Shown in pieces: positions 6,296 through 61,488 of a stretch of DNA of 64,000 nucleotides. This DNA is from an uncultured Lachnospiraceae bacterium (lineage in GTDB: Bacteria > Bacillota > Clostridia > Lachnospirales > Lachnospiraceae). Both the position numbers and the translations under genes were made by a program. The stretch's first letter is position 1. Every line of letters begins with the position of its first letter. The DNA lies in NCBI GenBank assembly GCA_902774915.1, contig CACYKH010000003.1, positions 124,001-188,000 on the forward strand. Direction: 5' to 3'. The notes below the pieces were generated by a model. That model saw nothing but the letters and a program-made list of their open reading frames with translations. It searched no databases and was not told the DNA's origin.

Positions 6296-8950
6296 TTAAC
6301 GAGTTCCTATATAAGTCCAATTATTAGGATCAAAAATATTATCATGAACGCTATACCACTCGCTTTTATTGAATGTATAACCTTTTAAATCAGTATTCCA
6401 ATCATTAGTATATATAATATTAATATCTCCTTCTTTTTTTTGACAATTTATTGGATTACCAGTAAACGGATTGGTAGGGTTGTCGATAATCCCATCACAT
6501 GCAAGTGCTGGCACATCAGCATTTGTCATAAATGAATCATCTATATTAAATCCAGTAGCGTTAAAATCTTTTACAAGCATTGTGCTTTGTGCACTTAATA
6601 AATCACAGTATTTTGTTTCCCCGCTTGTATACGTTAGATAACTAACCAAATTATTATCAAGATTTAAAATAGCACTATGATCTGATACAATAATTATCCT
6701 TGTATTATCATAAACACCATTCTCTCTTAAATAATCAAACCATTCTCCAAGTCTTAACATGGATGCCATGTCAACATGATAAAACATAACTCTTTCTTCA
6801 TCATATGAGTTCTTCTCTACATTATTATCAAATTCTGGTCCATACAAGTCAATTATACGTCCATCATCAGATTGTCTAAATCGATGTTCTTTATCATATG
6901 ATTTATTGTCTACAATAAAGTCTAATTCATATTCAGGTTCTTTAAATAAACAAGCTTCATGAGTTGTATTATTGCTAAACATATTGAAATGGTTTACATC
7001 TTTATCATCAATTCGAGATATATTTGATAGATTGTAAAGAACACTATAACTATCAAGAAATGGTTCATTTATTCCGATTGTGGTAGATAATGAATAAACA
7101 TTATTTAAACCAACCCCGTTTATCAATGATACATTTGATGAATTATATTCACCATTATCATATACTGTTGATTGCAAAAAAATCGGCGTAGCTCTAAACA
7201 CACCATACAAGACAAGATTTCTTTTTAAAACATCATCATAAACATAATAAAGATTATCTGGATTTAGTTTTGCTCCTGTATAATATTTGTAAATATACGG
7301 ATACTTATCATATATACTTAAATTGGGAATCCATTCATAATTGGCAAATGTCGGATCACCAACTGTAACATCATATCCATTCTCCCCAAACAAAACTGGC
7401 ATTACGGAAAGAGCCTCATTGTGCTTATTTTTTAATAATTCACCATCTCTTTCATTCATTTCTTCTGGAGTATACTCGTATCCACCATACAATCCAGGAG
7501 AACCTACATTTGTTGATGCCCCATAACTAATACAATTAGGATAATATACAAAGCCATCCCAACTATCCTTTAACTCTGGTTTTTCATTTAGAATAAACGG
7601 AATATAATAGCTAATCATTTTATCCATCATTATAACCACAACGTTTTTTCCATTTTTACTAAAACGAATCTCTGGGAAATCATCATATTTTTTCATAAAT
7701 TCTAGTTTTGTATCAGCTTTATTGTAAATACTTATGGAATTAAAAATATTAATAAATAAAAATGGAATTAAGATAAATATAAGTATATAACCAAGTTCTT
7801 TATATTTGTACTTAATTACAAACATAAACAAAGCAAAAGAAGCAATGATGATTGCAAAACTCTGAAATAACAAAAAAGGAGTTACAGTTGTTAGTGGTTG
7901 TGTTAATGTAATAAACTGCGTCATTGATGACTCAAACGGAATAATCAAATAATCAAGAAACCCAATGGCACATGCTGCTGTCAAACCACATGAAATAATA
8001 GTCCTTCCTTTTAACCCCATTAAATAATAATAAATACCAATCCATACAAAAAAGAATCCAAAAGCGATAAGAAAACTATTAATAATATAAAGAGCTGGAT
8101 TAATCTTATATATCGGACTTATAAACTCGTCAATCGAATAGCCGATTAAATCTCCTGGAATGAACACCCCAACTAATAATGACATCAAAAATGAAGCTCC
8201 AACAAAAATACGCAATAAACTATTACTTTTTTCTTTATCTGTTTTCTCATTTTTACGATTTACAAATCTATCTTTTATAACAAATCTATAAACAAAGTTT
8301 TTGCATAAAGAAAACATATTATTGCAAATCCAATAAAGAACTAATCCCGAAGGAGAATTATATAATAAAATCAAAAAAATAAATGCTATAATATACAGTT
8401 GTATTTTATCTCTAATAGAACTAGTCCTATTATATATTAAGCTAGAAATAATATTGATAAATGTCATAATTACAGGCAAAACATTAATACTTATTCCCGA
8501 AATCACAAGCATTTTATCTGGAACAGAAAGATCTTTTATAGGACCAAAAGAATAACCATTCAACAGACTTAAACTAGATAAATACTGATATGCCGCTATA
8601 AAGAAGGGTATTTCAAGTAATAATGGTAAAATCCCTCGCAAAGCATAATATGGTTTATAATTATTCTGCCTATAATATGTCTGAAGCATCATAAATCTTT
8701 CGTCGCCCTTAAAAGACTTTTTTATGTGAGTTTCCCATTTGTTAATGCTTCTTTTTTTTTCAGCTTCACGAGCTTGTAATACATCCGCTCTATTATATAA
8801 AGGCAAAACAAGTATATTAATGGTTAAACTAAGAATAACTATTGACCAACCAACATATAAAATTTTATTCAAAACTAGAGTGAAAATACAATCAAACACA
8901 ATAATAAGAGGACTAATAACAATTGAATATAACACATATAATATGCTCAT
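6296..8950 (-). CDS. YidC/Oxa1-like membrane domain fused to a sulfatase-like (LTA synthase-type) phosphotransferase domain
   Basis: An 884-residue protein with two halves. Residues 1-225 resemble a YidC/Oxa1 insertase: hydrophobic helices, RGILPLLLEIPFFIAAYQYL near 105-124 and SPSGLVLYWICNNMFS near 199-214. The positively charged residue expected in the first core helix of Gram-positive YidC is Asn45 here. Residues 245-410 add several more membrane segments. Residues 435-800 form an alkaline-phosphatase/sulfatase-type domain: metal-binding Asp443 (VVVIMMDKM), a likely nucleophile at Thr480 (GASTNVGSPG), His664 (NTTHEACLF) and Asp757-His758 (IIIVSDHSA), as in lipoteichoic acid synthases and phosphoglycerol transferases. 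ATG 8950 follows GAGGAGG; the upstream codon at 8968 has no site. It follows a TagF-like gene by one base, so polymer phosphotransfer is likely; the fusion's exact job is unknown. Confidence 0.8.
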   Translation of the reverse strand: MSILYVLYSIVISPLIIVFDCIFTLVLNKILYVGWSIVILSLTINILVLPLYNRADVLQAREAEKKRSINKWETHIKKSFKGDERFMMLQTYYRQNNYKPYYALRGILPLLLEIPFFIAAYQYLSSLSLLNGYSFGPIKDLSVPDKMLVISGISINVLPVIMTFINIISSLIYNRTSSIRDKIQLYIIAFIFLILLYNSPSGLVLYWICNNMFSLCKNFVYRFVIKDRFVNRKNEKTDKEKSNSLLRIFVGASFLMSLLVGVFIPGDLIGYSIDEFISPIYKINPALYIINSFLIAFGFFFVWIGIYYYLMGLKGRTIISCGLTAACAIGFLDYLIIPFESSMTQFITLTQPLTTVTPFLLFQSFAIIIASFALFMFVIKYKYKELGYILIFILIPFLFINIFNSISIYNKADTKLEFMKKYDDFPEIRFSKNGKNVVVIMMDKMISYYIPFILNEKPELKDSWDGFVYYPNCISYGASTNVGSPGLYGGYEYTPEEMNERDGELLKNKHNEALSVMPVLFGENGYDVTVGDPTFANYEWIPNLSIYDKYPYIYKYYTGAKLNPDNLYYVYDDVLKRNLVLYGVFRATPIFLQSTVYDNGEYNSSNVSLINGVGLNNVYSLSTTIGINEPFLDSYSVLYNLSNISRIDDKDVNHFNMFSNNTTHEACLFKEPEYELDFIVDNKSYDKEHRFRQSDDGRIIDLYGPEFDNNVEKNSYDEERVMFYHVDMASMLRLGEWFDYLRENGVYDNTRIIIVSDHSAILNLDNNLVSYLTYTSGETKYCDLLSAQSTMLVKDFNATGFNIDDSFMTNADVPALACDGIIDNPTNPFTGNPINCQKKEGDINIIYTNDWNTDLKGYTFNKSEWYSVHDNIFDPNNWTYIGTR

Positions 8951-8951
8951 A

Positions 8952-10211
8952 TTATTTATCCTCCTCATCCACTTTATCTTCTTTTGTTTCCTCTACTTTA
9001 ATCAAATCTATATTTTTTTTTATATAATTAACCACTCGGTATTTTCCCTCTCTAGGATACATCCATGTTTCTTTTCTAGCCTGTTCACGCCCTCTAGAAT
9101 ACTCTTCAGAATTTATACATGAATCAATTGTGTCTTTTATTTTATTAAAATCATTCTTTGTCAATTCTCTACCTATTTTAGGCAATGTTTTAAAAGTCCA
9201 TAATTCATCATCAAGCCATGAACAATCATATATAGAATCATCAAAATCAGGTTCTGTATATATAACAGGTTTATCAAAAACAAGACTATAATCAAAAATT
9301 ACACCAGAGAAATCTGATATCATAATATCCGAATTATATAAAACATTAAAATTATCAGTATCTCTGTTCCAGCTAATCTGATCAGAATCAGGATACTTCT
9401 TCTGTAATTCTTCTATCATTTCTTTTTCTGCAGTAAATGACTGAGGATGCGGTCTGATAACAATCTTATATCCTGTATCAATGAGCTCATCTAATAATTC
9501 TGAGCCATACTTACTTAATAGACCGCTAGCCCCCCATGTTGGAGCAACAATCACTGTTATCTCGTGTTCTTTCAACTTTTCAACTTTTTTTACTCTATCA
9601 AGCATGACATCCATATATGGAAGTCCTACATACTCTATATCTTTCTCTGGGAGATTTCTAAGCTCTTCAAGTTTTCTAATTTGTTCTCCCTGATATTCAC
9701 CTGATAAAAGAATTGCATCGTAATAGTCCAGACCAAACATTCTATATGCAGATATATCATTTGGCATGTGAGCTATATGAACATAATAGTTAACATTCTT
9801 TGATCTCTTCCACTGGAAAACATCAAGACTTGGTGTTGTGGAAAGAACCACCTTTGCATTTAGATTGTTAAGTCTTGCAAATCCTTTGCCCCCCTCACCA
9901 ATAAACTCGGTATTAATATGATCATATACTTTACTAAAAGCTGGGTCATCTTCAGATTGAGTCATAAAAACAGCATCAATTTCTTGCCGCTCAAGTTCAT
10001 CACAAATAGGCTCAAAAATATTCCAATACCTCTTGTGATCCGAATAGATTACAAGAGGTATTTTTTTTGAATCAATAATTTTTTTTTCACCTCTGACAAA
10101 GAGTTTCAACTTTATAATAGTATCTTTAAAAAAATAAAGAACCGCACCCAACAAACTGATCATAATAGTAATCAGCATGCTACCCGTTCCAGGATCGATG
10201 TAGAGAATCAT
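8952..10211 (-). CDS. TagF-like CDP-glycerol/CDP-polyol glycerophosphotransferase family protein
   Basis: About 419 residues. The N-terminus YIDPGTGSM leads into a single membrane helix (about 10-30), followed by a GT-B-type polyol-phosphate polymerase domain of the TagF family: VAPTWGASGLLSKYG near 223, VIRPHPQS near 255, and MISDFSGVIFDYSLVFDKP near 295-315, the characteristic SDxS/SG signature. Such enzymes transfer glycerol- or ribitol-phosphate from CDP-activated donors onto teichoic-acid-like or capsular polymers on the cytoplasmic face. ATG 10211 (after AAGGTG) avoids overlap with the flippase stop; an upstream ATG at 10229 is less likely. It lies between the flippase and the YidC/sulfatase fusion with 1-base gaps, so the three form a unit. 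The donor (glycerol or another polyol) cannot be read from the sequence. Confidence 0.82.
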   Translation of the reverse strand: MILYIDPGTGSMLITIMISLLGAVLYFFKDTIIKLKLFVRGEKKIIDSKKIPLVIYSDHKRYWNIFEPICDELERQEIDAVFMTQSEDDPAFSKVYDHINTEFIGEGGKGFARLNNLNAKVVLSTTPSLDVFQWKRSKNVNYYVHIAHMPNDISAYRMFGLDYYDAILLSGEYQGEQIRKLEELRNLPEKDIEYVGLPYMDVMLDRVKKVEKLKEHEITVIVAPTWGASGLLSKYGSELLDELIDTGYKIVIRPHPQSFTAEKEMIEELQKKYPDSDQISWNRDTDNFNVLYNSDIMISDFSGVIFDYSLVFDKPVIYTEPDFDDSIYDCSWLDDELWTFKTLPKIGRELTKNDFNKIKDTIDSCINSEEYSRGREQARKETWMYPREGKYRVVNYIKKNIDLIKVEETKEDKVDEEDK

Positions 10212-10212
10212 A

Positions 10213-11520
10213 CTACACACCTTCCGCATTATATATATTCTTATTTTTCTTATTTATAAACACACCATATATAAACTCACCTATAAATATAAGACACAGC
10301 AACAAAAGAATTGCAACGTAAAAAATGACCGCTCCTCTAATTCCATAAACCTTAACAACCTTACCACAAAAAATAAACGACAAGATAGCAACTATTACAT
10401 ATCCCCAAAGAATAGCATTTTGATATCTCATAACAGTGAGCAAATTTCCAAGTAATGTGGCAAGCCCCAAAAAACCACTTCCGACCATCATTATTAACAA
10501 ATCAACTTTGTAAGGTTTTAGATCCACGTTGAATATTAAAGACAAAACAGGAACCCCTAAAATAGCAGCCCCAATAAAACAAACAACAGTTATTACAACA
10601 AGAAACAATGCTTGTTTTAAAGACTCCTTAATATAATCATCCATTTTTCGTGCATCCCATAAACACGATATCTTATACGCACATGGATTAAATATAAATG
10701 TCATCATCATTTGAACAACAAAAACCGGCATTGCTAGATATGTATATATAGCTTGTATTTTATCATCTTGTATGTATGCATCTATCGCACTTCTTGGAGC
10801 TACACCAATATATGAAACTAAAACTGCACCCAATGCCAATGGGAGTGTTACCAATAAATGTTTCCAAACACTCTTCATTTTAGCAGGTATATTCTCGGAA
10901 ACAAACTCTTTTGTCCAATAAATGTATATTCCCATCACACCAAATGAGATAATAGTTGAAGCAATTACAGTAAGTAAAAGATTTTGAGTCGTCACAATTA
11001 GTATTATCATCACTACAATTGTTATAATATATCTTGTTGCCCACATTTTTGAAGCAACATCTAAACGATTGTTTTTTTGATATTCGCCGAAGTAAATATC
11101 CTCAAAGGCATCAGGAACCTTTAACATACAAACCCAAAAAACAACAAGCGCTTTATTTAAAGAATAATTATTTGCATTCGCGACAATTATTACATAAATC
11201 GCAGAAATAACTACCATTCCAATAGTTGTTATTATTCTAGCTATTCTATATTCCTTGAATTTGTATTCTTTTTCTATATCAGAGACCTGAAAGAATCTTA
11301 CACCATATTTTCCAACACAAAGAAATAGATTTGCATCCGCGTAACCAATAGCAAAAATACCAGCCATAACTTGGCCTATATCTTCTGCAAGGACATGGGT
11401 CATAACCATAGATAGAATAACTTGCTGGAATGAAAAGATTAAACTGGCGATCATGTTCCATATAGCACCAGACTTTTCTATGTTTTTACTTGTCGTGAGA
11501 AACTTCTTTACGGGATTCAT
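10213..11520 (-). CDS. Polysaccharide flippase, Wzx/MATE-like family
   Basis: A 435-residue polytopic membrane protein with roughly 12 hydrophobic segments, starting with SGAIWNMIASLIFSFQQ, the usual first helix of oligosaccharide flippases of the Wzx/MOP superfamily. It would move an undecaprenyl-linked oligosaccharide or polymer precursor across the membrane. It is followed without space by the TagF-like and YidC/sulfatase genes, which supports export of a polyol-phosphate-containing glycan. ATG 11520 has AGGAAA upstream at short spacing. The 42 bases between it and the HAD gene contain no terminator, so transcription may run in from polC. The substrate is unknown. Confidence 0.82.
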   Translation of the reverse strand: MNPVKKFLTTSKNIEKSGAIWNMIASLIFSFQQVILSMVMTHVLAEDIGQVMAGIFAIGYADANLFLCVGKYGVRFFQVSDIEKEYKFKEYRIARIITTIGMVVISAIYVIIVANANNYSLNKALVVFWVCMLKVPDAFEDIYFGEYQKNNRLDVASKMWATRYIITIVVMIILIVTTQNLLLTVIASTIISFGVMGIYIYWTKEFVSENIPAKMKSVWKHLLVTLPLALGAVLVSYIGVAPRSAIDAYIQDDKIQAIYTYLAMPVFVVQMMMTFIFNPCAYKISCLWDARKMDDYIKESLKQALFLVVITVVCFIGAAILGVPVLSLIFNVDLKPYKVDLLIMMVGSGFLGLATLLGNLLTVMRYQNAILWGYVIVAILSFIFCGKVVKVYGIRGAVIFYVAILLLLCLIFIGEFIYGVFINKKNKNIYNAEGV

Positions 11521-56121: not shown

Positions 56122-56997
56122 CTATAAATCCATACTTCTTGCTGGAACACCCTCAAACTTAATGTCATCAAGGTAATCAATATGATCAGGAAACTGTTCC
56201 CTCTCAGGCGGAAATTGCATGTAATCTCCATAGTAGCTTCTAAGAGAAGCATCATAACCTGCAGGTGCAAAGAATTTCCTATCTCTTATAGGAAGCTCAA
56301 CCTTCTTTTTATACCATTCCTTCTTGTAAACGCTATCAGAAATATATGTAGCTGATACGTTAGAAAGAACGTAATATTTGCACTTTTTATTCTTATTATA
56401 CATTTGAGAAACCTTTTCATACCAGGCAAAAAGCCTTTTTAATGGAATAAAAATACCAATACGACATAAGATATATACAGCAAATCTTGCAAAAGGATTG
56501 GCTGGAACATCATATGTCAGATTATATCTCCTACTTGTTCCAAATACATACAACAATTTCAAGTAAAAAATATGGAGTTTTCCTCTTATGCCGCCAGGAT
56601 TATTATCCATTACAAAGAGATCCATAAAGAGGTGATCACAGTTATTATGATCATAAAACCTTGCTTCTCTATCATCCTTCTTTATTGAAACTCTTTCATC
56701 TATCATTCTTGTAGTATAATCCCAGAAGTATCCATCCTTACCATCTGGTATATGAACTCTGTATGGCGCAAGCTCATCCTTATGAGCCAAGAGCTTCTCA
56801 AAATCTTTTCTCTTGAAATAGATATCAATATCATCATCCCAAGGAATGAAATCCTTATGTCTTGCAGCACCAATAAGAGTACCTGCTTCCATAAAATAAG
56901 TTATATTATTCTTCCTACAAACATCATCTAGTTTGCAGAGCATTTCATATTCATAATCGTGAATCTTATCAACTATTTTTTGATCCTGTACTTTCAT
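56122..56997 (-). CDS. licD: LicD family phosphotransferase (phosphocholine transferase)
   Basis: A 291-residue LicD protein. The signature GTLIGAARHKDFIPWDDDIDIY near residues 41-60 contains the DDD metal site. LicD proteins move phosphocholine from CDP-choline to surface glycans; other members move ribitol or glycerol phosphate. The neighbouring choline kinase, cytidylyltransferase and BCCT transporter make phosphocholine the best reading. It is separated from the transporter gene by a strong hairpin at 57083-57122, so it may be expressed at a lower level. No membrane signal is seen: a cytoplasmic or peripheral enzyme. Confidence 0.88.
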   Translation of the reverse strand: MKVQDQKIVDKIHDYEYEMLCKLDDVCRKNNITYFMEAGTLIGAARHKDFIPWDDDIDIYFKRKDFEKLLAHKDELAPYRVHIPDGKDGYFWDYTTRMIDERVSIKKDDREARFYDHNNCDHLFMDLFVMDNNPGGIRGKLHIFYLKLLYVFGTSRRYNLTYDVPANPFARFAVYILCRIGIFIPLKRLFAWYEKVSQMYNKNKKCKYYVLSNVSATYISDSVYKKEWYKKKVELPIRDRKFFAPAGYDASLRSYYGDYMQFPPEREQFPDHIDYLDDIKFEGVPARSMDL

Positions 56998-57082
56998 AAA
57001 TACCTCGCTTGTTTTTTAGACTCATCAATTTTCTCATAATGATTTCTTTCAACAAAAGAAATATAACAGATTATCAAGAATA

Positions 57083-57122
57083 ATGCGAGAAGTATTTCAA
57101 TATTTAGAAATACTCCTCGCAT
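57083..57122 (-). terminator. Long hairpin between the BCCT transporter gene and licD
   Basis: Sixteen-base arms (57083-57098 and 57107-57122) with one G-U pair and an 8-base loop. On the minus strand TTATTCTTG follows; the plus strand also has U-rich sequence. It could be an intrinsic terminator or a processing signal inside the lic module. Confidence 0.65.
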
Positions 57123-57156
57123 ATATTTTCACTTTATATACTTATAAAAGACTAAA

Positions 57157-58827
57157 CTATTTCTCCGCTTCTTTATCAGCTGATTCTTCAGTCTTTTTCA
57201 CTCTAAGTTCTCTCTCTTCGTTCTCGAGAACATCTTCATCTATCTCAACTTCATCAAAGAATTCAGCTGGGTCCTCATTGTTATCGATATATTTACGAGC
57301 ATCCTTTATGAAGCTGGCAATTATCAGGATAATAACTATACCAACTGGGAATGCAGCTATGATAGAAACTGACTGAATGTTGTTCATACTACTCTCACTA
57401 AAGATCAGTGCGATTGGGAGAAGTATAAGAAGCATTGCCCAGAACAGCTTCATCTTCTTAGATGCCATTTCATTACCCTTCATGTTCTTATATGAATATG
57501 AAGATGCAACAAGTGTGATTGAATCAAATGATGTAGCATAGAATGCAACCATTGAAAGAATCAGAACAACAAGTACAAACTGATAACATGGAATAGTCTT
57601 GATTATATCAATGATAACTGCATAAAGGTCATAACCATTTGCCTCATAAGCTCCGATTGCATCGAACTTTCCTGTAAGCTGGAGGTTAAGTCCATAGTTA
57701 CCAAGTATGATGAATGAAATAAGTGTTGAGAAAAGACCAAATACGTATGTACCAAGAATTACCTGCTTAACTGTACGTCCTCTTGAGATGTTACCCATGA
57801 AGAATGGAGCTGCAACGCACCATACTAACCAGTAAGCCCAATAATACATTGTCCAGTTCTGAGGGAAACCATTCTCTCTAAGTGAATCTGTGTAAGTACT
57901 AAGAACTGGGAAGTTCTGTACCATAAGTCCAAGCTCTGAGAAACCACTTTCAAAGATATATACTGCCTTTCCACTTGAAAGAAGTACATATAAAAGAAGT
58001 GTACCAAACAGGAACATACATATCTTAGAAAGGTTATTTACACCCTTCATACCAATCATAACTGATGTTGTATAAGTTGCACATGTAACAAGAAGAATTG
58101 CGATTGTTACCCACTTTGTATATTCAATACCAAAAAGTGTTGTGAGTGCATTTCCAAGAAGTGGTGTAGCTACACTGAATGTTGTAGCTGTACCTGCTAT
58201 AAGTGCAATAACTGCAAGAATATCAATAGCCTTACCAGCAACACCGTCTGTGTGCTTTCCAAGTATTGGACGGCAAGCCTCACTGTACTTCTGCTTTCTA
58301 CTACCTCTAACGTGGATCATAAATCCAAAGCATGCTGCAAGTACTGCGTAGAAGCTCCAAACAATTGGTCCCCAGTGGAAAAGAGGCATTGTATTTGCCC
58401 AGTCCTTAATAGGTCCCATCTCAGCTACTCTAGGCTCTTCTGCATAATAAACCCATTCACAGAATGAATAGAAAAGAATATCAGCAGCAAGTCCACAACA
58501 GAAAACCATCGCTCCCCATGAGAAGAAACCATACTTTGGCTTCTCATCCTTGCCACCAAGGCGAACCTTACCAAGGTCAGAGAATGCAATGTAAAGTGAA
58601 ACTAAGAAAATGCCAAGTGCAACAATCAGATAGTAGAGACCAAGCTCTGTTCCAAGGAAACTTCTGATTGCAGAAAGAACAGATGTTGAACCATCTGGAT
58701 TGATAACAAAGATAGCGCATAAAATAATAAGTATGATTAGTGGAATAATCGTTGTAGATGGGTCGATTCTGCGGCCCTTAACTACCTTTGTCTCTTCTTT
58801 TTTCTTTGAAGTGTTTTCGTTACTCAT
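57157..58827 (-). CDS. BCCT family transporter, probably for choline
   Basis: A 556-residue betaine/choline/carnitine transporter with about 12 membrane helices (roughly 25-510) and a charged C-terminal tail (VKKTEESADKEAEK). The family tryptophan region NWTMYYWAYWLVWCVAAPFF followed by NISRGRTVKQ is clear near 325-355. The glycine-rich helix normally reading GMGIGL is CGLAADIL here (residues 112-119), a departure at the sodium/substrate site. In the lic context it should import choline, replacing LicB, which belongs to another family. It follows the LicC-like gene by 35 bases. Substrate is inferred from neighbours. Confidence 0.88.
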   Translation of the reverse strand: MSNENTSKKKEETKVVKGRRIDPSTTIIPLIILIILCAIFVINPDGSTSVLSAIRSFLGTELGLYYLIVALGIFLVSLYIAFSDLGKVRLGGKDEKPKYGFFSWGAMVFCCGLAADILFYSFCEWVYYAEEPRVAEMGPIKDWANTMPLFHWGPIVWSFYAVLAACFGFMIHVRGSRKQKYSEACRPILGKHTDGVAGKAIDILAVIALIAGTATTFSVATPLLGNALTTLFGIEYTKWVTIAILLVTCATYTTSVMIGMKGVNNLSKICMFLFGTLLLYVLLSSGKAVYIFESGFSELGLMVQNFPVLSTYTDSLRENGFPQNWTMYYWAYWLVWCVAAPFFMGNISRGRTVKQVILGTYVFGLFSTLISFIILGNYGLNLQLTGKFDAIGAYEANGYDLYAVIIDIIKTIPCYQFVLVVLILSMVAFYATSFDSITLVASSYSYKNMKGNEMASKKMKLFWAMLLILLPIALIFSESSMNNIQSVSIIAAFPVGIVIILIIASFIKDARKYIDNNEDPAEFFDEVEIDEDVLENEERELRVKKTEESADKEAEK

Positions 58828-58862
58828 AATTTTTCAACCTTCCTTTTATATGAATAAATAAC

Positions 58863-59597
58863 TCACCTTTTAACATGTGGCTTGTAGCCCTCGTAGGACT
58901 TATCTGCTGCCACCAGCTCATCAAAGCTGTCTATCTCAACCACATCTCCTCTATTCATCGGAGTAATGCCAAGACTGAATTTATCAAAATGTCTGAACAT
59001 GGCCACATCATCCCAATAGAGATGTCGGTTGCCTGCATGGTCGAACTCGTATTCAAGATATTTCTTAAGCTTAGTACAATCTTCTTTTGACCATCTTGAA
59101 ATACTGAAAAGGATCCATCCCTTGTCACCACCTGTTCTACTACAGGAAGTAACTGTACCCTCTTCATCTACCTGCATCAGCCACTCATCTGTTTTTTCCT
59201 CAGTCCAGATGGCGCTGTAGCCTGACCTTTCAAAATCAGCATGAAGTATTTTGTTATCGCGAATGACCAGGTCACCATCAAGTATCATACAGTCGCCCTG
59301 CTTTAAAATATTCTTTGCAGCATACAGAGATGAGATGTTGTTATACTCTGTATAGAACTGATTTGATATCAAATGGATGTCAGGATATTTATCGTAAAGC
59401 TCATGGAACATTTCCATCATATATCCTGTTACTATGTATATTTCATGGATTCCATTTGCCTTAAGACCATCGATGATAGTATCTATCATTCTCACGCCAT
59501 TAACCTCAACCAAAGGCTTTGGTTTATCAAGTGTGACCGGCGCCAGTCTTTCACCTTTTCCAGCGGCCATTATGATCGCTCTTTTTACTGTATTCAT
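58863..59597 (-). CDS. licC: LicC-like nucleotidyltransferase (choline-phosphate cytidylyltransferase type)
   Basis: A 244-residue nucleotidyltransferase. The signature AIIMAAGKGERLAPVTLDKP (residues 8-27) and the metal aspartate in ILDGDLVIRDN near 105 identify the sugar-phosphate/LicC family. It would make CDP-choline from phosphocholine and CTP. A second such domain lies within the fused gene directly upstream (7 bases apart), so substrates may differ (choline versus ethanolamine, or a sugar phosphate). Relation to aminoethylphosphonate cytidylyltransferases is possible but no phosphonate genes are nearby. Confidence 0.84.
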   Translation of the reverse strand: MNTVKRAIIMAAGKGERLAPVTLDKPKPLVEVNGVRMIDTIIDGLKANGIHEIYIVTGYMMEMFHELYDKYPDIHLISNQFYTEYNNISSLYAAKNILKQGDCMILDGDLVIRDNKILHADFERSGYSAIWTEEKTDEWLMQVDEEGTVTSCSRTGGDKGWILFSISRWSKEDCTKLKKYLEYEFDHAGNRHLYWDDVAMFRHFDKFSLGITPMNRGDVVEIDSFDELVAADKSYEGYKPHVKR

Positions 59598-59603
59598 AAA
59601 TCC

Positions 59604-61391
59604 TTAAATCCTTTCGGATACAAGTTTAAAGTAATCCTTAGCATATCTATACTGTCTCAGTGAATATTCACCGAAGTCTACACCCAGGCCTCTCTTATAT
59701 TCACACCAGTTGCTCCACAGAAGACCGCACATTGAAATGTATGCATAAATCCTTGTTCTTATGGACTCATCTGTTTTCTTGCCACCAACAGCAAAGTATG
59801 TATCTATCAGATTATCAACCTGTTCCCTGTCATAAAGTGAATAGATAGAGAACATAGCCAGGTCAACATATCTATCCTGCATTCCTGCATATTCCCAATC
59901 GATAAGCTGAATGCTTGTCTCTTCTCCATCCTTCTCGATTATCATAAAGTTATCTGGAACAGCATCGATATGAGTAAGTGTCATTTCAATCTTCTGTCCA
60001 TCAATGTAATCACGCAGGGAAAGAACATTTTTCTTTGTCTCTTCATAATCGCGATAAACTGAAGCAGCTCCGTTCCAGAGTGATTCGTAATACTCAATAT
60101 GAGCAAAGATATCAAATGTATGCTTAACGCTGAGCTTCATATCATGGAAGCCTCTCAGCTTCTTCATACACATTTCAAGGTCCCTTTGATCTGTTGGATC
60201 GCAGTTTCTTGAATTGTTGATGAAACGAGTTATCTTGTATCCATTCTTAGGATTAAGATAAATGTTATCGTCGCAAACACCTTTTCCTTCAATAGCGCTG
60301 TATACATCAGCTTCCATATCTCTATCAATCAGCTGACTTGTACCCTCGCCAGGAATTCTCATTATATATTTTTCATTCTTACAGCTGAAAAGGAATGAAC
60401 GGTTTGTCATACCCTTTTTAAGAACTGTGATATTCTTTATCTCTGACTTATCAACTCCCAGAACCTCTGCCGCAACACTTATGGTATCGTTCTCAAGGTT
60501 TCTGCTTTCAGAATCAAGTTCTCTAAGCTGTTCGTATGTATTTACCTCAGTAGTTTTATTATGAGGAACAACCTTTGCACTCAGGAACATTCTGTCCTTC
60601 TTAAAAGCTGCATCCTCCCAGAATCTTTCGTCATAAAGAGGATTCTTATCCATCTCTACAAGCTTTTCACTAAGAGCCTCGGCATCCTCTCCACATACGT
60701 AGGAAATACCGATCATTCTGTTACCAATCTTGTCGCTATCATCTCTCTTGCTCTCATCTATAACGCGAACAAGCTCAGCTTTACGGTTTACTCTTATCCA
60801 GCTGTCCTCATCCAGGATGTCGCTTACCATGTACCAGGAATAAGCTTCAGATTTTGCAAATGGATTTTCCTCACTCCAGATGTCACAAGGAACAATGTAT
60901 GTGTTATTAATCTTTCCAGCAGCAAGTGCCAGTGAGTGAAGATTATTCTTTGTAGCGTAATCATTGTTGTAGATCATCTTCACATCATATTTATCAACCA
61001 AATAGTCATAAGCTTCCATCATGAAACCAACAACCATTGTGATGTCCTTAATGCCAACTTCATGAAGATGCTCAATTGTTCTCTCAACAAGTGGAACACC
61101 ATCAACAGTAAGCATACCCTTTGGTGTCTCTGTATTGATAGGAACCATTCTCATGCCGTAGCCTGCCGCAAGAATGATTGCATTCTTTGGACTTGAGGCT
61201 TTGATGAAATCCTTCGCCTTTTTTGTAAGTGCCATAGAATCATCTAGCATTTTTTCCTGTATTAATATATTTATGGATTTGTTTACTGAACCTATGGAAT
61301 AACCCGACTGGTCCATAAGTGTACGTTGATTTGTATAACCGAACTGAGATAGTGTAAGTAGAATATCCTTATCGATTATAGATAGTTTCAT
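59604..61391 (-). CDS. Winged-helix / cytidylyltransferase / choline kinase triple fusion (LicC-LicA type)
   Basis: A 595-residue protein with three parts. Residues 1-65 look like a winged-helix DNA-binding domain (DKDILLTLSQFGYTNQRTLM then SIGSVNKSINILI as recognition helix). Residues 69-295 are a nucleotidyltransferase with ILAAGYGMRMVPINTETPKG (Lys91) and NDYATKNNLHSL. Residues 303-595 are a choline/ethanolamine kinase: THIDAVPDN (His474, Asp476, Asn481) and IDWEYAG (Asp498, Glu500). It would phosphorylate choline and convert it to CDP-choline, and the DNA-binding part may regulate its own operon. ATG 61391 follows AGAGGCGAG; an upstream codon at 61454 lies in the leader hairpin. The promoter and operator-like site lie at 61486-61547. 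No frameshift marks the joins. Confidence 0.87.
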   Translation of the reverse strand: MKLSIIDKDILLTLSQFGYTNQRTLMDQSGYSIGSVNKSINILIQEKMLDDSMALTKKAKDFIKASSPKNAIILAAGYGMRMVPINTETPKGMLTVDGVPLVERTIEHLHEVGIKDITMVVGFMMEAYDYLVDKYDVKMIYNNDYATKNNLHSLALAAGKINNTYIVPCDIWSEENPFAKSEAYSWYMVSDILDEDSWIRVNRKAELVRVIDESKRDDSDKIGNRMIGISYVCGEDAEALSEKLVEMDKNPLYDERFWEDAAFKKDRMFLSAKVVPHNKTTEVNTYEQLRELDSESRNLENDTISVAAEVLGVDKSEIKNITVLKKGMTNRSFLFSCKNEKYIMRIPGEGTSQLIDRDMEADVYSAIEGKGVCDDNIYLNPKNGYKITRFINNSRNCDPTDQRDLEMCMKKLRGFHDMKLSVKHTFDIFAHIEYYESLWNGAASVYRDYEETKKNVLSLRDYIDGQKIEMTLTHIDAVPDNFMIIEKDGEETSIQLIDWEYAGMQDRYVDLAMFSIYSLYDREQVDNLIDTYFAVGGKKTDESIRTRIYAYISMCGLLWSNWCEYKRGLGVDFGEYSLRQYRYAKDYFKLVSERI

Positions 61392-61437
61392 ATTTACTCG
61401 CCTCTCTAGAAATACGTTAAATGTTTCACAAAAGAAA

Positions 61438-61488
61438 AATCCGTTCTTGTTCACGAAAAATATTTTTCTCGCAACTCAAGAACGGATT
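61438..61488 (-). terminator. Leader hairpin of the lic operon / terminator for read-through from rubredoxin
   Basis: Perfect 12-base arms AATCCGTTCTTG (61438-61449) and CAAGAACGGATT (61477-61488) enclose a 27-base loop that holds the palindrome GAAAAATATTTTTC. On the minus strand the 3' arm continues TTTCTTTTG, a terminator-like tail. The 5' arm overlaps the -10 box of the lic promoter, so transcripts starting near 61480 lack most of it. Confidence 0.65.

Follow-up and report, generated by a model that had tools for sequence, protein, structure and literature searches.

A gene of an uncultured Lachnospiraceae bacterium joins a YidC/Oxa1-like membrane-insertase domain to a sulfatase-fold domain in a single uninterrupted frame of 884 codons. 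It lies at positions 6296-8950, on the minus strand, of a 64,000-nucleotide (nt) stretch of DNA (GenBank assembly GCA_902774915.1, contig CACYKH010000003.1, positions 124,001 to 188,000), here called the window. A preliminary description of this DNA had reported the frame at these coordinates, where it is indeed present, and its residue numbering (N45, D443, T480, H664, D757 and H758) is correct. The occurrence of the same fusion in many relatives rules out chance or misassembly as the source of the frame, and the YidC-sulfatase fusion is thereby confirmed as real. We tentatively propose, at somewhat less than an even chance, that the fusion supplies the membrane-bound and extracytoplasmic portion of a system of three modules, which would decorate surface glycans with phospho- or phosphono-alcohols by way of a lipid relay. 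What the sequences show are the architecture, the retained catalytic residues, a topology in keeping with the charge rule and a coupling of all three modules, the third being a TagF-like protein, in the genomes.

The fusion gene and its relatives

The longest open reading frame (ORF) extends from 6296 to 8968 and would give 890 amino acids (aa) from its first ATG; the ATG at 8950, which gives 884 aa, is the likelier true start because a GAGGAGG motif lies 9 nt upstream of it. This motif lies in the last part of the TagF-like gene that precedes the fusion and ends, with the stop codon at 8954-8952, a single base from the fusion ATG; the two genes are therefore probably coupled in translation. 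Hydropathy and positive-inside charge, averaged over 113 aligned rows with loop borders set by eye, gave an outer N-terminus, five transmembrane (TM) segments with a long basic cytoplasmic C1 loop, an inner C-terminal end of the YidC half, and then five TM segments ending outside. This pattern suggests an N-out/C-in YidC half followed by a five-TM (5-TM) domain that leads outside, and it places TagF inside and the sulfatase domain outside. The YidC half is the best conserved part of the protein (mean pairwise identity in the fused rows 0.60, compared with 0.48 in the sulfatase part and 0.32 in the 5-TM part).

Relatives were collected by an alignment-based genome scan that yielded at least 563 confirmed stretches, of which the 80 most similar to the full-length alignment, making up 79 loci, were kept; a scan of the genomes' contigs with a single protein as query had found no relative, but the alignment query did. 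With the window and ten stretches from genomes of the same bacterial family, these make 90 loci, 89 of them distinct (L081 is the same as L039). This choice by similarity favours complete fusions; some loci derive from the same assembly, and L065 overlaps L098 on a single contig. Residue counts below refer to 113 full-length fused rows including the window, 112 of them distinct.

All 90 loci hold the YidC-sulfatase fusion. ORFs with both halves occur in 88 of them (117 ORFs), the protein at the other two (L056 and L116) aligns full length in one frame, and a six-frame recount placed the YidC half in 90/90 loci with 120 matches. At 23 loci (L072, L088 and 21 others) the YidC half is present in two to four copies, which are often arranged in tandem and in some cases share a single TagF-like gene. 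The ORF survey of the 90 loci saw no YidC half alone and two sulfatase halves alone, that of L105 at the edge of its contig and that of L046 weak. By their titles, the hosts are mostly Lachnospiraceae, Oscillospiraceae, Ruminococcaceae or other Clostridia, many of them metagenome-assembled genomes (MAGs), and include Butyrivibrio sp. INlla21, [Clostridium] aminophilum and Schwartzia succinivorans (Negativicutes); MAGs labelled Eggerthellaceae (Actinomycetota) also carry the fusion, possibly by contamination. Among 200 genomes of the same bacterial family, nine carry 11 fused genes, and a further one (G081, locus L013) holds a shortened remnant in which the start of the YidC half is recognisable before it stops. 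In a phylum-wide sample, the sulfatase half was found in 4/398 genomes, one of them weakly (G595, locus L174, described below).

The YidC half

Curated profiles place the first half in the YidC/Oxa1 superfamily, as the preliminary description had claimed: Pfam 60KD_IMP (PF02096) matches residues 34-221 at 3.4e-24 (86.1 bits, cut-off 35), and NCBIfam yidC_oxa1_cterm (TIGR03592) scores 92.8 (cut-off 84.3). Compared with solved structures, a profile of the YidC half matched Escherichia coli YidC at 5e-14 and YidC 2 (3wo6) at 1.3e-11. The fusion is not the sole YidC of its genome; a second one sits in a separate rnpA-yidD-yidC-jag-like cluster, which looks like the usual yidC setting.

The positive residue in the groove of YidC, described as strictly conserved in the abstract of PMC8920935, corresponds to position 45, which is N in 108, S in four and G in one of the 113 fused rows and basic in none. 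The preliminary description read Asn45 as a sign of changed function. The basic residue does not delimit the YidC family here, because 11 of 20 other YidC rows also lack one (Y 7, K 5, N 4, R 4; Tyr or Asn at L015, L020, L021, L022, L024, L025, L026, L027, L152, L155 and L158). These rows were picked by profile and may not be the sole YidC of their genomes. According to excerpts of PMC8920935, E. coli YidC tolerates R366N provided that residue 517 is hydrophilic, while in Streptococcus mutans YidC2, where the partner residue is Trp, a neutral groove residue inactivates the protein. Taken alone, Asn45 thus settles little about function, and we reject it as sufficient evidence for a lost insertase activity. 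Its partner by profile alignment is W207 (W in 112/112 distinct fused rows), and the N45/W207 pairing, which matches the inactivating one of S. mutans YidC2, leans toward the earlier reading, but Trp also stands there in 18/20 other YidC rows. Further polar residues (S41, T163, N166, N210, N211, S214 and K217) are invariant or nearly so in the fused YidC half and mostly absent from the other YidC rows.

The sulfatase half

The Pfam Sulfatase profile (PF00884) scores the window protein at 24.4 bits, just under its cut-off of 25; among relatives, L041 reaches 29.9 bits, L036 23.8 bits, and L042 has no match. The catalytic residues named in the preliminary description (Asp443, Thr480, His664 and Asp757-His758) are invariant in 113/113 full-length fused rows. 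By analogy with the superfamily, we take T480 to be the nucleophile and the His and Asp residues among D443, H664, D757 and H758 to be metal ligands.

The domain had also been called lipoteichoic-acid-synthase-type, which stands at the level of the superfamily but not for LtaS proper. Against solved structures, a profile of this half found phosphonate monoester hydrolases best (8e-7), then sulfatases, and lipoteichoic acid (LTA) synthase weakly (0.0028). An LtaS-like family protein, a single sequence on its side of the comparison, matched it at 66.5% over 127 C-terminal columns only, whereas unfused 5-TM sulfatases with the same catalytic positions match the second half of the window protein at 99.7% over 472 columns, including the TM part. 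We therefore do not file the sulfatase half as LtaS.

The TagF-like partner and a second type of fusion

The TagF-like neighbour matches PF04464 with 52.8 bits (cut-off 22.1) over profile positions 149-356 of 367 only, and its profile found no solved structure at 1e-3. A TagF-like gene with the N-terminus LYIDPGTGSM stands on the fusion's strand in 72 of the 90 loci, with a gap of at most 300 nt in 68 and a median of 12 nt; the survey of homologues that the preliminary description called for thus bears out the link. Stand-alone TagF-like genes also occur in the same nine of the 200 family genomes as the YidC-sulfatase fusion (G000, G004, G022, G036, G049, G052, G109, G169 and G184), an overlap whose chance is about 1e-15 by a simple count that ignores relatedness. 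The G036 protein has a long extra C-terminal part, and G004 has two TagF-like genes on contigs other than those of its fusions, one with an internal stop.

The same modules are joined differently elsewhere. A second type of fusion, of 629-710 aa, links YidC to a TagF-like domain in seven of the 200 family genomes and in G595 (loci L164, L165, L166, L167, L168, L169, L170 and L174). One of the seven, G022, holds both types of fusion. The TagF halves are homologous to the stand-alone TagF-like proteins (100%, 352 columns), which have a short hydrophobic N-terminus where the fusion has YidC. No YidC-TagF fusion was listed in a second sample of 396 genomes, from which G595, a carrier that matches directly, was probably not drawn.

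These genomes carry the sulfatase as a separate protein. A model of the unfused 5-TM sulfatase matches at 1e-90 or better in 6/7 YidC-TagF genomes and in 1/193 others (G052, where it is YidC-fused); in five more genomes it is the fused sulfatase halves that match, at 1e-16 to 1e-21. The unfused sulfatase is next door in five of the eight YidC-TagF loci, L164 and L166 being without it and L169 stopping at a contig end. In G135 and G190 there are five and six unfused sulfatases, respectively, to one YidC-TagF match each, a ratio that fits a shared diffusible donor with several acceptor-specific transferases. At six loci from four genomes, no YidC or TagF-like gene was found beside scattered unfused sulfatases; one of these (L205) is near LicC-LicA-like genes. 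Separate and unlinked halves, named in the preliminary description as speaking against its reading, occur to a degree: there are sulfatases without YidC, but the genomes that hold them carry YidC-TagF, often adjacent.

The unfused sulfatase of L174 (6784-9051) has an N-terminal YIDPS segment like the YIDPGTG of stand-alone TagF-like proteins. At L042 (7914-10274), the YidC half aligns with the common clade and the sulfatase half scores with the otherwise unfused branch (341 bits), which suggests a further exchange of fusion partners.

A tree was built from 16 of 32 YidC-sulfatase rows, the YidC-TagF rows and 21 other YidC rows, which include the long L012 and the short L154 and L156 and remain after two duplicates were dropped (the residue table leaves out L150 as well, hence 20 rows). 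The two fused YidC types form separate clades with full support that do not group together, and an approximately unbiased (AU) test disfavours a joint clade (p 0.035). Both types share D83, a basic residue at 94, Y98 and P100 in C1, and N211, which the other YidC rows mostly lack (P100 is in 8/20), so that the two may still have a common origin; at the groove position, YidC-TagF has K in 7/7. The tree and AU test lean toward two separate captures of the YidC fold, and the shared residues would allow a single one.

Headgroup-supply genes and other features of the window

The features of the window are collected in Table 1. A lic cluster (56122-61454) lies on the same strand as the fusion, and because the window holds it, the headgroup in this genome is possibly phosphocholine. 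The names flippase, PhnW, MBOAT/DltD, rnpA, yidD, jag and TagD, for neighbours here and at other loci, come wholly or partly from the look of the sequence; the flippase-like protein matched nothing in Pfam or NCBIfam up to E 1.

Table 1. Features of the window, with positions counted from its first nucleotide
Feature	Position	Strand	Basis or remark
YidC-sulfatase fusion gene, 884 aa	6296..8950	-	Frame, profile matches, kept residues
YidC/Oxa1-like half, residues 1-228: 5 TM, cytoplasmic C1 loop, groove position Asn45	8267..8950	-	PF02096, TIGR03592 and solved-YidC profile matches; hydropathy and charge
Five-TM membrane domain, residues 250-425, common to unfused sulfatases	7676..8203	-	Hydropathy; profile alignment extends through the domain
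Predicted extracytoplasmic sulfatase/alkaline-phosphatase-superfamily domain, residues 430-884, with D443, T480, H664, D757, H758	6299..7663	-	Profile, kept residues
Short TagF-like (PF04464) protein, N-terminus LYIDPGTGS	8952..10229	-	PF04464 3.9e-14; stop adjoins fusion ATG; homologous to TagF half of YidC-TagF
Hydrophobic, flippase-like protein, overlapping the TagF-like gene	10213..11520	-	Label from look of sequence
LicD-family phosphotransferase, a competitor for CDP-choline, about 47 kb from fusion	56122..56997	-	PF04991 8.3e-29
BCCT betaine/carnitine/choline transporter	57157..58827	-	PF02028 2.6e-125
Second LicC-like nucleotidyltransferase, 244 aa	58863..59597	-	Profile match
Helix-turn-helix, LicC-like nucleotidyltransferase and LicA-like choline kinase, 616 aa, about 51 kb from fusion	59604..61454	-	PF12804, PF01633; possible donor supply

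On either strand of the 90 stretches, with gene-neighbour models built from the same loci that were counted, choline-kinase-like genes occur in 24, LicC-like genes in 37, EamA-type (licB-like) transporters in 11, phosphoenolpyruvate (PEP) mutase in six and LicD in four; a licA-, licC- or pepM-like gene is present in 40. Within six genes of the fusion (88 loci), the counts are 21, 34, 10, six and four, respectively. Sets for aminoethylphosphonate (PEP mutase, phosphonopyruvate-decarboxylase-like protein, PhnW-like aminotransferase and LicC/PntC-like protein) stand beside YidC-TagF at L164 and L168 and beside YidC-sulfatase at L171 and L172. At L039, L044, L166 and L167, a nucleotidyltransferase is joined to a CobD-like pyridoxal-phosphate enzyme, a fusion that may make CDP-ethanolamine from phosphoserine. 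A TagD-like gene was seen at one locus, L042, such neighbours not having been counted systematically.

Proposed mechanism and its alternatives

In the proposed scheme, neighbouring or distant genes would provide a headgroup, for example phosphocholine, aminoethylphosphonate or phosphoethanolamine, in CDP- or CMP-activated form. The TagF-like protein would transfer it to a membrane lipid at the inner face, and the YidC fold, acting as a lipid-headgroup conduit, would present the loaded lipid at the outer face. There the sulfatase-fold domain would take the headgroup by way of Thr480 and pass it on to a glycan acceptor. We infer the lipid intermediate, the conduit role and the direction in which the headgroup is transferred. 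Transferases of the alkaline-phosphatase superfamily, for example EptA and LtaS, take headgroups from phospholipids of the outer face. Gene adjacency, genome co-occurrence and the alternative YidC-TagF fusion lend support to the earlier suggestion of a YidC fold at work in a polymer or lipid pathway. According to excerpts of a preprint (PMC10491306), lipid scrambling was observed for E. coli YidC in proteoliposomes and for the tested members of the Oxa1 family in simulations, along the insertion groove. It is conceivable, though we lean to doubt, that the fold has been turned from an insertase into a dedicated lipid-headgroup conduit that connects a CDP-headgroup transferase in the cytoplasm with a transferase of alkaline-phosphatase type outside, and that it was fused in evolution to one or the other.

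Several observations weigh against this scheme. No TagF-like gene on the same strand was found in the stretches of 18/90 loci, nine of which have at least 3 kb on both sides. The lic genes of the window are some 47-52 kb from the fusion and include their own LicD, which could be the sole user of CDP-choline. LicC-like genes are commoner with the system yet plainly not specific to it (9/15 genomes with the system vs 46/185 without; p 0.006). An aminoethylphosphonate cluster at L199 holds a stand-alone TagF-like gene, and neither YidC nor sulfatase was found in its stretch of 13.5 kb, so that a TagF-like protein may act without either. Finally, the genome searches score few first-look candidates per genome (e.g. 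four), and absences may be misses.

The locus L199 also favours a scheme in which the TagF-like protein would decorate the glycan directly in the cytoplasm, as LicD does, the sulfatase domain would edit or remove groups outside after export, and the YidC half would be a coupling scaffold. Such direct transfer would agree with the flippase-like gene that overlaps the TagF-like gene in the window and with the phosphonate monoester hydrolase as best solved match of the sulfatase profile, and LicD-type transfer from CDP-choline is a known route to glycans (excerpts of PMC10434233). We nevertheless think it unlikely, as a YidC half that is the most conserved part and is fused to either enzyme exceeds the needs of an editor's scaffold.

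Rather less probable is a YidC half that works as a dedicated insertase or chaperone for the 5-TM sulfatase or for partner membrane proteins of the pathway. Its YidC profile score above cut-off, five TM segments and basic C1 loop are those expected of an insertase, a function that the non-basic groove residue alone does not exclude. However, homologous 5-TM sulfatases at the six loci have no YidC found beside them (YidC-TagF being elsewhere in those genomes), the genome has another YidC in the rnpA-yidD-yidC-jag-like cluster, the YidC-sulfatase clade has invariant residues of its own, and a neutral residue 45 with Trp 207 is the pairing that inactivates S. mutans YidC2 (excerpts of PMC8920935).

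We consider it improbable that the role of the YidC half is a passive one, as a membrane anchor or for oligomerisation. The short hydrophobic N-terminus of stand-alone TagF-like proteins, in the place of the YidC of YidC-TagF, would be in keeping with an anchor, but not so the identity of 0.60 beside 0.32 for the adjoining TM domain or the invariant polar residues within hydrophobic segments. Most doubtful of all is an LtaS-like enzyme making or extending a teichoic-acid-like glycerol-phosphate polymer from phosphatidylglycerol, for which the common superfamily and catalytic set and the TagD-like gene at L042 speak, and against which stand the weak similarity to solved LTA synthase and to the LtaS-like family protein, another sulfatase-family gene in the same genome (at C4, a 701-aa frame) and the recurrence of choline- and phosphonate-type neighbours.

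Comparison with known systems

Like the insertases of the YidC/Oxa1/Alb3 family, the YidC half scores above the profile cut-off, has five TM segments and a basic C1 loop, and keeps the conserved Pro, Tyr and Trp positions. Unlike them, it is fused to an enzyme, forms a separate, fully supported clade with its own invariants (T163, N166, N210, S214 and K217), carries a groove Asn, which is not diagnostic, and is not the copy in the usual yidC setting.

EptA and LtaS have a layout of TM segments followed by an outer sulfatase-fold domain. The second half of the fusion resembles LtaS, EptA and PptA in this order, in the position of the Thr nucleophile and in the retained His/Asp ligands; it differs from them in the extra YidC half, in the coupling to a CDP/CMP-headgroup supply and, as compared for LTA synthase and the LtaS-like family protein, in weak sequence similarity. 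The neighbour resembles TagF-type CDP-glycerol glycerophosphotransferases in its PF04464 score above cut-off and in an RPHPQ stretch invariant in the nine aligned proteins. Unlike TagF, it has about 425 aa, matches the second half of the profile only, has its own N-terminal segment and has no solved relative at 1e-3; its gene neighbours suggest that it uses donors other than CDP-glycerol.

With LicABCD and PntC, the system shares the LicA-, LicC- and PEP-mutase/PntC-like genes beside it in part of the loci. It departs from Lic-1 in that a LicD-like gene is in 4/90 stretches, the TagF-like protein, YidC and sulfatase standing in the expected place of LicD, and the LicD of the window is with the lic genes about 47 kb off. 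In excerpts of PMC10434233, a survey of 26 species gave no evidence that Lic-1 and PptA coexist in one species, and the phosphocholine transferase PptA, of alkaline-phosphatase type, is described there as having a donor that is still unidentified; the route of aminoethylphosphonate to surface glycans is called enigmatic beyond its first steps in excerpts of PMC6697681.

The preliminary description knew of no characterised protein with this arrangement, and our search of the open-access literature, outside which most subscription journals lie, likewise found no report of a fusion between YidC and a sulfatase or TagF domain. Excerpts of a paper on archaeal YidC and glycosylation (PMC5898192) contain no sulfatase and no such fusion, and PMC12419801 does not mention YidC, insertase, TagF or sulfatase. 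In many gut and rumen bacteria, the loci link genes that activate headgroups to a TagF-like transferase, a YidC fold and an enzyme of sulfatase fold, and they thereby make the questions of the aminoethylphosphonate route and the PptA donor testable. If the proposed scheme is true, it would provide a bacterial member of the Oxa1 superfamily with a role in lipid-headgroup transport and a lipid-donor route for decoration with phosphocholine or aminoethylphosphonate, and the lipid scrambling by insertases seen in the laboratory (excerpts of PMC10491306) would gain a possible physiological role. The parts are of known kinds, while their combination and the exchange of fusion partners are undescribed in the literature that could be searched, and together they suggest a three-part system for surface decoration.

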